Origin: Deltaproteobacteria bacterium RIFOXYA12_FULL_61_11
Lineage (GTDB): Bacteria; Bdellovibrionota_F; JAHFAK01; YA12-FULL-61-11
Direction: 5' to 3'
NCBI GenBank assembly: GCA_001799195.1
Contig: MGSU01000006.1
Span: 1 to 13,543, forward strand
DNA length: 13,543 bases
Positions 694 to 8,852 of this stretch are shown one piece after another. Position 1 is the stretch's first letter; every line of letters starts with the position of its first letter. The position numbers were made by a program, and so were the translations under genes. Below the pieces are notes generated by a model. That model was not told the origin of the DNA. It saw nothing but the letters and a program-made list of their open reading frames with translations, and did no database searches.

Positions 694-1977
694 ATGGACG
701 ATTTCATGCTCGACGAGCAGGGCCGCACGGTTCGTGACGAGATGCGCTGCTTCGTGCGCGAGGAGATACCCGCCGATTACCTCCGCAGTATGGACCGCGA
801 TGAGGTTCGCTTCCCGACCGAGATCTATCGCCGTTTCGGTCACGCCAACCTCCTCGGTCTGCGCTTTCCTCGCGCCCTCGGCGGACGAGGCCTTTCCTGG
901 TTCCACGAATGCGCCGCCATGGAAGAGGTAGGTTGGGTAGGCACGGCTCTGGGCTGTGCCTTCGTAATGCCCTCGATCGTCGGAGAAGCCCTCTTTCGTT
1001 TCGGCACTCCCGAGCAACAACGCCGCTTCCTGACCCCGATGCTCGCCGGCGAGTTGGTCTCGGCCGAAGCCTTGACCGAACCGCGAGGTGGATCCGACTT
1101 CTTCGGAGCTGCCACGGTAGCAGAGGACCGGGGAGATCACTTTGTCCTGCGCGGGATGAAGCGCTTCATCGTCGGAGCCGAGGGCGCCGATTTCTTCCTC
1201 GTCTACGCCAAGACCAACAGCGATCCGAAAGCCGCTCCGACCGAACGGTTGAGTACCTTCCTGGTCGAACGTGGTCCGGGGGTCGAGGTCGACTATCTCT
1301 ATCGCTTATTGGGAACCCGGGGGGGTGGGACCGGACGCGTGATCTTCCGCGAGGTCAAGGTCCCCCGCGAACACCTGCTCGGCCCACTCCACGGAGGAGC
1401 GCAGGTGTTCAACCGAATGATGGTGGCCGAACGACTCTGCAGTGCCGCACCAATGCCCGGCGGTATGGCCGCCGCACTCCAGGTCGCGCTGCGCTATACC
1501 GACCGACGCAAAGCCTTCGGCCGACCTGTCCGCGCGTTCCAGGGCGTCAGTTTCCAGCTCGCCGAGGCCAATACTCTCCTCGACGCCAGCCGCGCGCTGA
1601 TCGCCCAGACCGCCCGGGCCGCCGACCTCGAACCTCCGCACCTGCGCCGCTTGGTCTCCGAATGCAAGAAATTCGTGACCGAAGCCGCCTGGCGAGTCGT
1701 TGATCTCGCCATGCAGACCTGCGGCGGCATTGCCTATACCGAGGTGTATCCTCTCGAACGCTTTTTACGCGATACCCGTATCGCTCAGATCTGGACCGGC
1801 ACCAGTGAGATCATGTCCGCGTTGATCCAGCACGAGCTATACGAAGAGTTGCACGCTGGGCCGCGAGGTGACTTCAGATCCGTGGAGGACGATGCCATGA
1901 CCGCCGACCTCTCGGAACGCATCCATGATGATGAGGAAATGTGGAACGTCTACCACGAGGGAGCAACGCGATCGTGA
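694..1977 (+). CDS. Acyl-CoA dehydrogenase
   Basis: A 427-residue FAD-dependent dehydrogenase that would introduce a trans-2 double bond into an acyl-CoA and pass electrons to an electron-transfer flavoprotein. It has the family order: helical N-terminal domain, beta-domain with the flavin/substrate motif EALTEPRGGSD (about 125-135), and C-terminal helical domain with RKAFGRPV (272-279) and YPLERFLRDTRI (352-363). At the place where medium-chain enzymes carry the catalytic Glu (YEGTS), this protein has IWTGTSE, i.e. Thr368. A Glu at 246 (VAERL) aligns with the alternative base used by isovaleryl- and long-chain acyl-CoA dehydrogenases. About 40 residues of acidic tail follow the normal end. 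AGGAG lies 8 bases before the ATG. Its stop overlaps the start of the regulator gene. Chain-length specificity cannot be read from the sequence. Confidence 0.95.
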   Translation: MDDFMLDEQGRTVRDEMRCFVREEIPADYLRSMDRDEVRFPTEIYRRFGHANLLGLRFPRALGGRGLSWFHECAAMEEVGWVGTALGCAFVMPSIVGEALFRFGTPEQQRRFLTPMLAGELVSAEALTEPRGGSDFFGAATVAEDRGDHFVLRGMKRFIVGAEGADFFLVYAKTNSDPKAAPTERLSTFLVERGPGVEVDYLYRLLGTRGGGTGRVIFREVKVPREHLLGPLHGGAQVFNRMMVAERLCSAAPMPGGMAAALQVALRYTDRRKAFGRPVRAFQGVSFQLAEANTLLDASRALIAQTARAADLEPPHLRRLVSECKKFVTEAAWRVVDLAMQTCGGIAYTEVYPLERFLRDTRIAQIWTGTSEIMSALIQHELYEELHAGPRGDFRSVEDDAMTADLSERIHDDEEMWNVYHEGATRS

Positions 1978-4229
1978 ACGCCCGGCTTGACCCCGCTATA
2001 CCTGGGGTCGTCACCACGGACCTCGCCATACGCTTTCTCGACCTCGTAGGAGAGATCCTGATAGGCCTGGATCTCGAGGGGCGTATCACCATGGTCAACC
2101 AACGGGCTTGCGACCTCCTCGGAGCACCTCGAGAACAACTCTTGGGCCTGGACTGGTTCACCACCTTCCTCTCTGCCGATCAGACCCCCGAAGTGCGTGC
2201 CGTCTTCGAAGCCATCCTCCGAGGGGATTTTCCCCCCGACGAGATCCACACCTACGAGAACTCCATCATCCGCAGCGACGGCTTAAAACTCAGGGTTGCC
2301 TGGCGCAACACCTACCTACGAGATATCGACGGTACTATCATCGGCACCCTCAGCAGCGGCCAGGACGTCACCACGACCAGGTTGAGCGAGGCTGAATGGA
2401 AGCTCAGCGAACGTCGTTTCCGCGTGCTCGTCGATACCTCCCCGGATCCCATTTTTCTCTTCTCGCCTCAGGGTCACCTCGAATGGGCCAATCATGCCGC
2501 CGAAGAACTATGGGGCATCCCCCTGGACGAACTGCAGGGTTGTCAGGCCCGTAGCTTGGCTTCTCTCGTGGACTCCAGTGAGCCAGCGGTTCTTCGCGAG
2601 CTCCTCGAAACCGGTTCTTGGAGAGGCGAACTCGAGACCTTCGACGCAGCCGGGCAACCCCGACGCTTGCTCGTGGTGGCCAGGCAATTCTGCAGCCATG
2701 ACGAAGCGATCCTCTCATACCTGGCCTTTGCGCATGACCTGACGGCCGTACGCACGGCAACCCTAAGCCTCGAACAGACCCTGGAGCTACAACATGGACT
2801 GTCCAATCTGACCAGTCTGATGATTCTCGGCCTCGAGCTGAGGTTCGGTGAATATGCCCGCTGGTCCGGACGGATCCTGCGAGCCGAGCAAGCCTGCTAC
2901 CTGGAAATGGGGGAGGGCCCGCTCGCAAGCCCGCGTTTACACCACGGGGACATCAGTGCTTCCCAAGCAGACGACTTGGCAGTAAGGATCCTCGCTCTCT
3001 TCGAGAAATCCTCGACAACTTCAATCCACGGTCAACCCATACTGGGTGGAGAGGGGGAACTCGGCTTGCCCGTCAATCTCGACGGACGCTGCCTTGGACT
3101 CCTGGGCCTCCGTTTTTCCTCCCGCGAAGCAGCCTACAAGGCAGGGGGTATGGAGGTCGCTACGACTATCACCGAATTAATGTCCGTCGCCCTCGCCAGG
3201 AAGAGGACAGAGGAAGAACTGACCTATCGTTTCCGCATCGAGCAGGCCATTTCCGAAATCTCCAAGCTCCTCATGACCGGTTCAACCTTTTCCAGCTCGA
3301 ACCTGCCGTGGCAAGAGGTCGTCCGCATCCTTGGAGAGGCCTTACAGGTGGGTGAATTCTTCCTCTGGGAGTTCGAGCCCGGCAGCACGAAGCTGCGAGC
3401 CTGCGTCAAACACCAGTTGCGCGAAGTACCGATCAAAGATACCCGACCGGAGACGAAGTTCAACTTCGAGCGGTGTACCTGGTGCTATGAGCGTCTGCGC
3501 AGCGGTAAAGACGTGGTATTGATCGGCTCGCTGAGTTTACCTGCTGAAGCCGTTGCCGAGCGCGAACTACTCCCGGTCGGCGGCTCGGGATCGTATCTCT
3601 TCCTTCCCATCAACCACCCCCCGGGTACGCTCTGGGGGGTTCTCGGCGGTTTCGAATCCCACTATTCAAGAAGCTGGAATCAATATGAAATCAATGCGTT
3701 GCACATCATTTGCGAGCAACTCAGCTCAACTCTCGTCCATACCACGAGCGAAGCCCGGCTCCGAGAATTGGAACATCTCTTACGCGCCGAGAAAAAAGTT
3801 CTCGAGGAGAAGAACATCACTCTCAAAGAAGTCCTGCGCAATATCGAAAGCGAAAAACAAGAAGACCTGGCGCGGGTTTCCAGGACAATATCTTTGAGCA
3901 TCCTCCCTCTACTCGAGAGACTCGGCACCATCGGCACCACCATGGAACGTCGCTACCTCGAAATCGTCAAGAACGCGCTCTCGGAACTGACCGTGGCCCC
4001 CTCGGATGCACAAGCCAACCTCTATCTCTCGCTCAGCCCCAAAGAGGCAGAGGTCTGCAACCTCATCGCCAATGGCATGGATGTCAAGGAGTGCGCCCAT
4101 TTACTGCACCTCTCGCCGGCAACGGTGGCTACACATCGACGCAAGATCCGGCATAAACTCGGTCTGGTCAATTCGAAGACCTCGCTGACCACCTTCTTGC
4201 GCCGTCACCTCGGAGAGGAGCAGAAATAA
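1974..4229 (+). CDS. PAS-PAS-GAF-GAF sensor with C-terminal LuxR-type HTH
   Basis: A 751-residue cytoplasmic transcription regulator. Reading along it: PAS 1 at about 17-135 (IGLDLEGRITMVNQRACDLL), PAS 2 at about 147-265 (IFLFSPQGHLEWANHAAEEL), a diverged GAF-like region at about 266-410, a second GAF at about 418-592, a helical coiled-coil connector at about 593-650, and a LuxR/GerE helix-turn-helix at about 688-735 (LSPKEAEVCNLIANG; SPATVATHRRKIRHKLGL). There is no kinase, receiver or membrane segment, so the signal is probably a small molecule, redox change or partner protein sensed by the PAS/GAF domains. The GAF 2 region has a CxxC (Cys501, Cys504). I chose the GTG at 1974 because it overlaps the previous stop (GTGA) and has GAGGGAG 10 bases upstream; a GTG at 1941 would add 11 residues. 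Promoter targets are unknown. Confidence 0.92.
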   Translation: MNARLDPAIPGVVTTDLAIRFLDLVGEILIGLDLEGRITMVNQRACDLLGAPREQLLGLDWFTTFLSADQTPEVRAVFEAILRGDFPPDEIHTYENSIIRSDGLKLRVAWRNTYLRDIDGTIIGTLSSGQDVTTTRLSEAEWKLSERRFRVLVDTSPDPIFLFSPQGHLEWANHAAEELWGIPLDELQGCQARSLASLVDSSEPAVLRELLETGSWRGELETFDAAGQPRRLLVVARQFCSHDEAILSYLAFAHDLTAVRTATLSLEQTLELQHGLSNLTSLMILGLELRFGEYARWSGRILRAEQACYLEMGEGPLASPRLHHGDISASQADDLAVRILALFEKSSTTSIHGQPILGGEGELGLPVNLDGRCLGLLGLRFSSREAAYKAGGMEVATTITELMSVALARKRTEEELTYRFRIEQAISEISKLLMTGSTFSSSNLPWQEVVRILGEALQVGEFFLWEFEPGSTKLRACVKHQLREVPIKDTRPETKFNFERCTWCYERLRSGKDVVLIGSLSLPAEAVAERELLPVGGSGSYLFLPINHPPGTLWGVLGGFESHYSRSWNQYEINALHIICEQLSSTLVHTTSEARLRELEHLLRAEKKVLEEKNITLKEVLRNIESEKQEDLARVSRTISLSILPLLERLGTIGTTMERRYLEIVKNALSELTVAPSDAQANLYLSLSPKEAEVCNLIANGMDVKECAHLLHLSPATVATHRRKIRHKLGLVNSKTSLTTFLRRHLGEEQK

Positions 4230-4232
4230 CAT

Positions 4233-4256
4233 ATCGGGTACTAATAGATACCCGAT
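4233..4256 (+). terminator. Inverted repeat just after the regulator gene, possible terminator
   Basis: A perfect 8-bp stem (ATCGGGTA / TACCCGAT) with an 8-nt loop begins three bases after the regulator stop codon. Only a short TTTAT follows, and the stem is just half GC, so it is a weak intrinsic terminator at best. It could also be a protein-binding palindrome or a 3'-end stabilising hairpin. Confidence 0.4.
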
Positions 4257-4306
4257 TTATAGTCGATAAATACCTCTTGCGCCCTGCAGTGCGATGGGGT
4301 ATCTCT

Positions 4307-4403
4307 ATAAGCACAGGGGAACTTTGCATCACATCTTCTTCATTAAACATCTCGTTTAAGACTTCGGTAAAGTCCTGAAGAGGCTCAAAGTTCCCCTCTT
4401 TAT
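4307..4403 (+). ncRNA. Candidate structured RNA element with three-way junction
   Basis: The gap between the regulator and receiver genes folds almost completely. P1 is a perfect 12-bp helix, AGGGGAACTTTG (4315-4326) with CAAAGTTCCCCT (4386-4397). P2 is 8 bp with one G-U pair (4335-4342 with 4376-4383). P2 closes a junction holding hairpin P3, TTAAAC/GTTTAA (4343-4348, 4354-4359), and hairpin P4, GACTT/AAGTC (4360-4364, 4370-4374). Only one base (4375) is unpaired in the junction. An outer ATAA/TTAT pairing (4307-4310, 4400-4403) may extend P1. The G-U pair would be an A/C mismatch on the other strand, which favours plus-strand transcription. A pyrimidine-rich stretch follows. It could be a leader of the receiver mRNA, a small RNA, an elaborate terminator, or a small palindromic repeat. 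I recognise no known RNA family in it. Confidence 0.45.
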
Positions 4404-4498
4404 CTCTTTCTCTCCGGCTCACCCCGATCGGTGGTCCGGTTTCGGTCGAAGAACCATGGTGCCAGCATCTCGGAGAACGTCCTCAACCCAGAGAAGTC

Positions 4499-4897
4499 AT
4501 GGATGAGACTCGCACAACCGACAATCCCACGATCCTCATCGTCGAGGACGACCTATTGCTCGCCCTCGACCTCGAGGACATGCTCAGGGCCCACGGTTTT
4601 CACGTCGTACGCGATGTCGTCTCGGGAGAGGAAGGAATTGCAGCCGCCTCGAACCTTGCTCCGCATTTGATTCTGATGGACATCCGTTTACGCGGAGGCA
4701 TCAACGGTCTCGCCGCTGCCCGTTTCATCAGACAAACCTCCCGAGTCCCGATCATTTTCCTCACCGCCTATGCCGACGAAGCCAGCAAACAAGCCGCTGA
4801 AGCGCTCGAGGCAGAAGGCTTCCTCATCAAGCCAATCCGCGAGGAAATCCTGCTCAGCACCATCCGCTCCGCTTTGAACTCTGCGCAGACGAATTGA
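4499..4897 (+). CDS. Stand-alone response-regulator receiver protein
   Basis: A 132-residue protein consisting of one CheY-like receiver domain and no output domain. The acidic pair is Asp17-Asp18 (after ILIVE), the phospho-accepting aspartate is Asp61 (LILMDIRL), and the switch residues are Thr89 (LTAYAD) and Lys111-Pro112 (LIKPI). All key residues for phosphorylation are present. It would act by protein-protein contact downstream of a histidine kinase. No kinase is encoded in the window, and the neighbouring PAS/GAF regulator has none, so the partner must lie elsewhere. The ATG at 4499 is preceded by a modest AGAGAAG. It lies 269 bases after the regulator gene, with the folded element between them, so it may have its own transcript. 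Confidence 0.92.
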   Translation: MDETRTTDNPTILIVEDDLLLALDLEDMLRAHGFHVVRDVVSGEEGIAAASNLAPHLILMDIRLRGGINGLAAARFIRQTSRVPIIFLTAYADEASKQAAEALEAEGFLIKPIREEILLSTIRSALNSAQTN

Positions 4898-5450: not shown

Positions 5451-6383
5451 TCAGGCTCCCTGCTCGAACAAGGCTGTGCTGAGATAACGTTCGCCGGTAT
5501 CGGGGAGCAAGGTCACGATACGCTTGCCGGAGAACGATGGTCGGGCGGCGAGTTGCAGGGCAGCCCAGAAGGCGGCCCCGGAAGAAATGCCGCAGAGAAT
5601 ACCTTCGCGCCTGGCCAGCGCCCTAGCTGTCTCGAGGGCTTCCTCGTCCCGCACGGGTTGGATTTCATCGTACACAGAGCAATCGAGCACTTCGGGCACG
5701 AAACCGGCTCCGATGCCCTGGATCTTGTGGCTGCCAGCCTGACCACCGCTGAGTACTGGGGAACCAGCCGGCTCTACGGCAACTATCCATAACGAAGGGT
5801 TACGCCGCCGTAATTCCTGGCCCACGCCGGTGAGCGTCCCACCAGTCCCCACACCCGCGACAAATCCATCAACGCGACCGCCGCAGTCCTCCCAAATCTC
5901 CACTGCGGTCGTGCGCCGATGAATCTCCGGATTGGCCGCATTGGAGAACTGCATCGGCATAAAGGCCTTGGGGAACTGCAGGAGCAGTTCCTCGGCCCGC
6001 TCGATCGCCCCCCGCATCCCGCGATCTCCTGGGGTCAGCTCCAATTCTGCTCCGAGGTGCAACAGGAGGGCTCTCCGCTCCAGGCTCATGGTCTCGGGCA
6101 TGGTCAGGATCAAACGGTACCCCTTGGCCGCGGCGACAAAGGCGAGCGCGAGCCCGGTATTCCCGCTGGTCGGTTCAACGAGGACCGTGTCGGCATCTAA
6201 CAGACCCGCACCTTCAGCCACCTCGATCATCGCAGCGCCAATACGGTCTTTGACCGAGGACATGGGGTTGAAGCTCTCGAGCTTGACCAAGAGCTCGGCC
6301 CCTCCATCTGGGGCGAGCGCATTGATCCTGACAAGTGGAGTTCTGCCGATGGTATCGACAATGGACCGGTAGATTTTTTCCAC
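5451..6383 (-). CDS. cysK: Cysteine synthase (O-acetylserine sulfhydrylase)
   Basis: A 310-residue PLP enzyme that replaces the acetyl group of O-acetylserine with sulfide to give cysteine in the cytoplasm. Features along the chain: GRTPLVRI near the start, the PLP lysine Lys45 in [15 protein letters not shown] (72-77) for substrate binding, GTGGT (179-183) for the cofactor phosphate, [18 protein letters not shown], and [10 protein letters not shown] near the end. The length is normal. Two usually conserved loops differ: MQFSNAANP instead of QQFxNPANP, and TTAVEIW instead of TTGPEIW. CysK is favoured over CysM by [10 protein letters not shown] and overall similarity. The start is GTG (6381-6383) with TAGGAG seven bases upstream. 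It lies 14 bases after cysE, so the two are co-transcribed and their products act in sequence. Confidence 0.95.
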
Positions 6384-7540: not shown

Positions 7541-8218
7541 TCAGGACAACGCTCTTAGACCGAAGCGGAGCTCGGTCTGCTCGGGAACCTCGAAGGTCGT
7601 TTGCTCGAGGGATTCCCAGACCTGCTCGCACATCGAGGCAAAATCCTCGGGGTTGTTGACGAAATCGAGCCCGTCGGTGTCGATGGTCAACACTTTGCCG
7701 GGATAGGTCGCGACCCAGTCCTCGTAATGATTGGCAAGCTGCTGCAAATATTCCCGTTTGATGGAACGTTCGAACTCTCGGCCGCGCTGCGCGATGCGGT
7801 GGCACAGCGTCGGCACTGAAGCCCGCAGGTAGACCAAGAGGTCCGGGACTTCCAGGTTCTGCGCCATGTTCTCGAATAGCTCGAGGTAGCAGCGATAGTC
7901 GTTCTCGCTCATGTTTCCTTGCAAATACAAGTTCTTGGCGAAAACATAGGGATCTTCGTAGATGCTCCTGTCCTGAATGGTGGCCTCTCCGCTACGCTGG
8001 ATGCCGTAATGGTGAGCGAAGCGCTTGGAAAGGAAGAAGACCTGCAGATGGAAGGCCCAGCGCTTCATATCCTTGTAGAAGCCCGCCAAGTAAGGATTTT
8101 GCTCGACGACCTCGTAGAAGCGCTTGAACGAATAGCGCTCAGCAAACATTGTCGTGAAGGTCGACTTCCCCACCCCGATGTTCCCTGCCATCACGATGAA
8201 TGCGGGCTCCGTCCTCAT
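7541..8218 (-). CDS. Deoxynucleoside kinase, DRS-motif type
   Basis: A 225-residue kinase of the deoxyadenosine/deoxyguanosine/deoxycytidine kinase family, phosphorylating deoxynucleosides to monophosphates for salvage. The P-loop is GNIGVGKST (12-20), the substrate/catalytic region has Glu36 and the DRS motif (Asp83-Arg84-Ser85 in QDRSIYED), and the arginine-rich lid is RGREFER (145-151). DFVNNPEDF (185-193) is shared with the upstream kinase. The start is well supported: GAGGAGG lies about six bases before the ATG, inside the coding sequence of the preceding kinase gene, which overlaps this one by 80 bases in another frame. The DRS version resembles deoxyadenosine/deoxyguanosine kinases, but the preferred base cannot be read with confidence. 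It is the second member of a tandem pair. Confidence 0.92.
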   Translation of the reverse strand: MRTEPAFIVMAGNIGVGKSTFTTMFAERYSFKRFYEVVEQNPYLAGFYKDMKRWAFHLQVFFLSKRFAHHYGIQRSGEATIQDRSIYEDPYVFAKNLYLQGNMSENDYRCYLELFENMAQNLEVPDLLVYLRASVPTLCHRIAQRGREFERSIKREYLQQLANHYEDWVATYPGKVLTIDTDGLDFVNNPEDFASMCEQVWESLEQTTFEVPEQTELRFGLRALS

Positions 8219-8852
8219 GTGTAGCCTCCTCGAGCTTGCTGAAGATACATGTTTTGATCGCTTCGTAATCCGCGGGGTTGTTCACGAAATCGTACCGCTC
8301 GGCATCGAGGACCAACACGTTCCTCGGAGACTCGTCCCCCTGGGCGTACGCGGTAAAATACTCGTCGTAGTGGTCGATCAACTTCTGGATGTAGGCTTTA
8401 CTGATGTCCCGTTCGAACTCACGGTCGCGCAGGGCGATACGGTTCATGATCGTGCCGACCCCCGACTTCAGATACACCACGAGCTCGGGTTTCCGAACCT
8501 GCACCTGGAACGTTTTGAAACAATTGAGATACAATTGATAATCCTCGGCGTCGAGGTTGGCTTGGGCGAAGATCCGGTCCTTGTCGAAGAGATAGTCGGA
8601 GATGCTGAGGAACGAATTGCGCCGTTCCCAGACTTTTTGCAGTTCGCGCTGCTGACGGAACCTGGAGAGAAGGAAGAAGATCTGGGTCTCGAACCCATTG
8701 GCCGTGGGATTCTTGTAGAATCCACCGGTGAGGAACGGATTGTTCTCGAAGGTTTCGAGTATCGGTTTGATATTGGTGTCCCGGGCAAGATAGCGACACA
8801 AGGTGGTCTTACCTACCCCGATGACCCCCTCGATGACGAGATAACACCCCAT
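8139..8852 (-). CDS. Deoxynucleoside kinase, SDY-motif type
   Basis: A 237-residue paralogue of the downstream kinase. The P-loop is GVIGVGKTT (9-17), and the lid is LRDREFERD (141-149) with DFVNNPADY at 188-196. The family's D/ERS motif is replaced by SDY (Ser85-Asp86-Tyr87 in SISDYLFDKD), as in a separate group of bacterial deoxynucleoside kinases, so this is not a recent duplicate. The last roughly 26 residues (from THEDGA) are encoded within the 80-base overlap with the next gene; they are Arg/His/Asp/Glu-rich and unlike a normal kinase C-terminus, so their sequence is probably constrained by the other frame. The ATG at 8850-8852 has AGAGG about 7 bases upstream. A strong promoter lies just upstream. 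Substrate is unknown; pairing with the second kinase as a heterodimer is possible. Confidence 0.9.
   Translation of the reverse strand: MGCYLVIEGVIGVGKTTLCRYLARDTNIKPILETFENNPFLTGGFYKNPTANGFETQIFFLLSRFRQQRELQKVWERRNSFLSISDYLFDKDRIFAQANLDAEDYQLYLNCFKTFQVQVRKPELVVYLKSGVGTIMNRIALRDREFERDISKAYIQKLIDHYDEYFTAYAQGDESPRNVLVLDAERYDFVNNPADYEAIKTCIFSKLEEATHEDGARIHRDGREHRGGEVDLHDNVC

Follow-up and report, generated by a model that had tools for sequence, protein, structure and literature searches.

A branched inverted-repeat structure, possibly terminator-like, downstream of a PAS-GAF-LuxR regulator gene

Between a LuxR-type regulator gene and a receiver gene lies an 83-nt element that folds into a compact branched structure, in which a perfect 12-bp helix (A4315-T4397 to G4326-C4386) encloses an 8-bp helix and two abutting hairpins. 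Positions are those of the window, the whole 13,543-nt stretch of DNA that was analysed. The tentative reading, with a probability of roughly 0.38, is that it punctuates transcripts downstream of the LuxR gene in the manner of a terminator. The fold itself is computational; transcription and termination are suggested by its position, the tail that follows it, and a single analogue elsewhere in the genome. Most simply, the element can be read as the ordinary end structure of a transcript or as an inverted repeat that arose by chance, and not as a new kind of RNA.

The element starts 85 nt past the stop codon of the LuxR gene and ends about 100 nt short of the receiver ATG, in a gap where no gene is called. 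The features of the locus, in order of position, are as follows.

1941-4229, plus strand: upstream gene, PAS-PAS-GAF-LuxR (GerE) regulator
4233-4256, plus strand: separate small hairpin (ATCGGGTA...TACCCGAT), starting 3 nt past the LuxR-gene stop codon
4277-4305, plus strand: weak promoter-like TTGCGC-17-TATCTC upstream of the capping helix
4315-4326, plus strand: 5' arm of the capping helix (AGGGGAACTTTG), found by sequence reading, inverted-repeat search, and folding
4335-4342, plus strand: 5' arm of the 8-bp helix that closes the three-way junction, found by folding
4343-4359, plus strand: inner hairpin 1, 6 bp (4343-4348 with 4354-4359) and a 5-nt loop, found by folding
4360-4374, plus strand: inner hairpin 2, 5 bp (4360-4364 with 4370-4374) and a 5-nt loop, found by folding
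4376-4383, plus strand: 3' arm of the 8-bp helix that closes the three-way junction, found by folding
4386-4397, plus strand: 3' arm of the capping helix (CAAAGTTCCCCT), found by sequence reading, inverted-repeat search, and folding
4398-4415, plus strand: C/U-rich tail 3' of the capping helix (CTTTATCTCTTTCTCTCC), with no clean U tract
4499-4897, plus strand: downstream gene, receiver-only response regulator of 132 aa

The region of the element is not obviously coding. The minus-strand open reading frame at 4168-4422 (84 aa) has no family match in PHROGs or NCBIfam, and a codon-usage gene finder does not predict it as a gene. As a separate observation, a small GGTA-n7/8-TACC palindrome stands immediately 3' of both LuxR-type genes, at 4233-4256 of the window and after the paralogue in L048; such palindromes might serve as an operator or as a weak terminator.

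Refolding of 4280-4420 recovers every pairing of the original prediction: the 12-bp and 8-bp helices, the two hairpins, a single unpaired base at the junction (4375), and one G-U pair only (T4336-G4382). For the 83-nt element the minimum free energy structure is identical to the centroid structure, and pair probabilities are ~0.99 in the 12-bp helix and ~0.93 in the 8-bp helix in sequence contexts as long as 800 nt. The same fold stays stable across all contexts tried. Hardly a base of the core is left unpaired, and the 12-bp helix takes in both ends of the element.

The fold is considerably stronger than that of shuffled sequence. On the plus strand, the 83 nt reach −29.2 kcal/mol against −14.8 ± 2.9 for shuffles (z −4.94, with none of 200 shuffles as good), and on the minus strand z is −4.74, again with none of 200 as good. 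Extending the segment to 141 nt with its flanks gives z −3.60 on the plus strand and −1.62 on the minus strand, while the 49-nt core alone gives −2.09 (6 of 200 shuffles). The energy excess over shuffles is mostly due to the 12-bp helix. The G-U pair had been taken to favour the plus strand; the preference does point that way, and it is mild, since the inner 59 nt alone outfold shuffles with p = 0.018 on the plus strand and p = 0.154 on the minus strand.

As a transcript end, the element would work through the order in which its parts emerge. Once RNA polymerase passes 4397, the 12-bp helix would close over two pre-formed hairpins, the C/U-rich tail would come next, and transcription of the LuxR operon would pause or end. 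The closed helix may also protect the 3' end of the LuxR operon transcript, and the receiver gene would thereby be uncoupled from that operon. By U-tract score, the tail sequence CTTTATCTCTTTCTC ranks among the top 2.6% of positions in the window, with the plus strand outscoring the minus strand, and CTTTATCT contains 5 T in 8, interrupted. In this genome, C/U-rich tracts also stand directly after tRNA-Asp, tRNA-Thr, tRNA-Gly, and one tRNA-Met. C/T tracts show no clear enrichment after stop codons, with densities in tandem gaps of 0.70 per kb in sense and 0.56 per kb in antisense. T-tailed hairpins are not clearly enriched after genes either, and capped stems that combine a large loop with a T-rich tail are no more frequent there in the sense orientation.

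The terminator-like reading is favoured because a structure of matching architecture occurs in the same genome where a transcript should end. This closest analogue is a 64-nt capped stem located 11 nt 3' of tRNA-Leu (L144:2692-2755, minus strand), a position at which the end of a transcript is expected. Like the element, it has a perfect capping stem, here of 13 bp, around two adjacent inner hairpins, and it is followed by CTTTTCTCC. It differs in being shorter, of unrelated sequence, and higher in G+C, in lacking the intermediate 8-bp helix, and in following a tRNA and not a protein gene.

Comparison with known terminators gives a mixed picture. Terminator function has been proposed for clusters of adjacent hairpins that lack a U tract (PMC8355165). 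Like intrinsic (Rho-independent) terminators, including this proposed type, the element places a strong helix past a stop codon, contains adjacent hairpins, and has a pyrimidine-rich tail on the plus strand. The expected stable, G+C-containing hairpin downstream of the gene is present in the predicted transcript, with the helix length, energy, and z-score given above. Unlike intrinsic terminators, in which a short loop (about 3-9 nt) is combined with a U tract abutting the stem, the element has a branched loop of 59 nt, an interrupted U tract, and a distance of 85 nt to the stop codon. A consensus terminator scan does not call it. The scarcity of T-tailed hairpins in this genome also speaks against a terminator. 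If the element is terminator-like, it adds one branched, poorly U-tailed transcript end to a genome with few classical terminators.

Nearly as likely, and close behind the terminator-like reading, is that chance or templated mutation created the 12-bp complementarity, around an ordinary interior, in an intergenic stretch under low constraint. The frequency of such stems was gauged in a sample of 1.25 Mb of this genome, containing 122 kb of intergenic DNA. By chance, intergenic stems that reach 12 bp or more around a loop of 25 nt or longer are expected about 0.7 times per 122 kb, which amounts to a few per genome. The window itself carries another perfect 12-bp inverted repeat, within a RodA-like gene (11895-11906/11971-11982), so that two are present where 0.04 perfect 12-bp inverted repeats within 100 nt are expected per window. 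The element is also a single copy with no detected homologue. On the other side, long-loop stems in the intergenic sample exceed shuffles, with 3 seen against the 0.7 expected for stems of 12 bp and longer and 10 against 2.1 for those of 11 bp and longer, an excess for which repeats account in part, and the inner part of the element outfolds shuffles on the plus strand as well.

A z of −4 or below is found in about 1% of the intergenic 90-mers sampled from this genome; many intergenic and some coding 90-mers fold equally well or better, and several intergenic ones, among them a tRNA-linked terminator and repeats, fold much more strongly than the 83-nt element. The claim that the arrangement is unlikely by chance accordingly stands for local fold energy and loses force once stems of this kind are counted across the genome. 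The fold is genuine and improbable in its local setting, yet unexceptional within its genome. What the analysis usefully yields is a calibrated negative: elegant folds seen in one sequence, capped by a 12-bp helix, should turn up a few times in each genome. Within the window, the strongest 90-mer of the scan lies elsewhere, at 5835-5924 on the plus strand (z −5.97), antisense to a cysteine-synthase-like gene.

Rather unlikely is a lineage-specific small RNA or a 5' leader of the receiver gene, with a start near 4312-4318 and the whole 83-nt fold functional. The TTGCGC-17-TATCTC sequence would make transcription begin at about the point where the capping helix starts, and several tRNA genes here have, by eye, TTGAC-type −35 boxes at comparable spacing to a TA-rich hexamer. 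An almost fully paired core, a 12-bp helix holding both ends, and a C/U-rich tail 3' of that helix would also suit a discrete RNA. The promoter match, however, is a weak one, 6 of 12, picked out post hoc, and a consensus scan finds no promoter at 4277-4305. As a leader, the fold would lie about 100 nt from the start codon, across a spacer whose own fold is unremarkable (z +0.57).

Homology searches weigh against a small RNA or leader as well, with no Rfam match and no homologue in 290 genomes. By DNA search, arm pattern, and covariance model, the element occurs once in its genome, and DNA and covariance-model searches of its own genome and of others return only the self-match. The covariance model, built from a single sequence, has no match in the 290 genomes under strict filters that may lose weak matches. 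In Rfam 15 nothing matches at or above the gathering score of any family, and relaxed thresholds yield nothing credible. The best sub-threshold Rfam match, the microRNA family MIR9486 on the minus strand, scores 17.8 bits against a cut-off of 100 and is rejected.

The phylum comprises two genomes, the present one and another from the same class, and the LuxR protein is absent from the latter. Searched against GTDB genome contigs with short-peptide patterns, which would miss moderately diverged relatives, the LuxR-gene protein finds none, and against 386 genomes it finds, beyond its own paralogue, partial domain matches only. Nothing resembling the element lies in the 3' region of that paralogue (on C333), which by reading leads to adenylylsulfate-reductase-like genes. 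For the neighbouring deoxynucleoside kinase, the top match among genome contigs has 52% identity (Candidatus Chrysopegis kryptomonas); because even this best match is so distant, a close relative carrying the locus appears to be lacking. The minus strand at 7541-8852 holds two deoxynucleoside kinase genes that are in tandem, adjacent, and overlapping.

Quite doubtful is a lineage-specific regulatory RNA of a poorly sampled phylum, either a small RNA or a leader of the receiver gene, in which a compact three-way junction capped by the 12-bp helix would couple the PAS-GAF-LuxR regulator to the stand-alone receiver. Such an RNA would be new and specific to its lineage.

A palindromic repeat or MITE-like mobile element is highly improbable. 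In its favour, 12-bp terminal inverted repeats flank 59 bp, and at least 40 copies of a palindromic repeat family are present in the genome. Against it, both DNA and covariance-model searches find the element only once; the sole other exact arm copy (C256) lies in a region covered by open frames, where no partner was seen for it; the ends carry no abutting direct repeat, TATCTCT coming closest at offsets of 8 and 3 nt; and viral contigs, phages, and plasmids yield no match to the arm-pair and core patterns. The suggestion of a small palindromic repeat is therefore set aside, given the single copy and the missing target-site duplication.

The true repeat family of this genome bears little likeness to the element. 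It is about 127 bp long, with 82-97% identity among the copies found by own-genome search (for example L195:11809-11935, with further copies in L227, L231, and L235), none of which is on the contig of the window. Its inverted terminal repeats reach TTCAGTCTTGGG/CCCAAGACTGAA, and several copies have, by eye, flanking direct repeats of ~8 bp, such as CAACGATT in L235, as expected of a MITE. Ends that start with GTAA or GTCA recall those of the IS66 type. The family shares with the element terminal inverted repeats around an internal hairpin, within its core of about 127 bp, and differs in being multi-copy, in its sequence, and in the flanking direct repeats of several copies. In an RNAalifold alignment of 20 copies, 2 of 34 pairs show two Watson-Crick types, and because there is almost no compensatory change, the family looks more like a DNA element than like a conserved RNA. 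Elsewhere in the genome, at L157:2390-2561 and L157:8524-8619, iterated TTAGCTGTTAGC and TTAGTTTTTAGT repeats stand in inverted orientation around about 65-80 bp.
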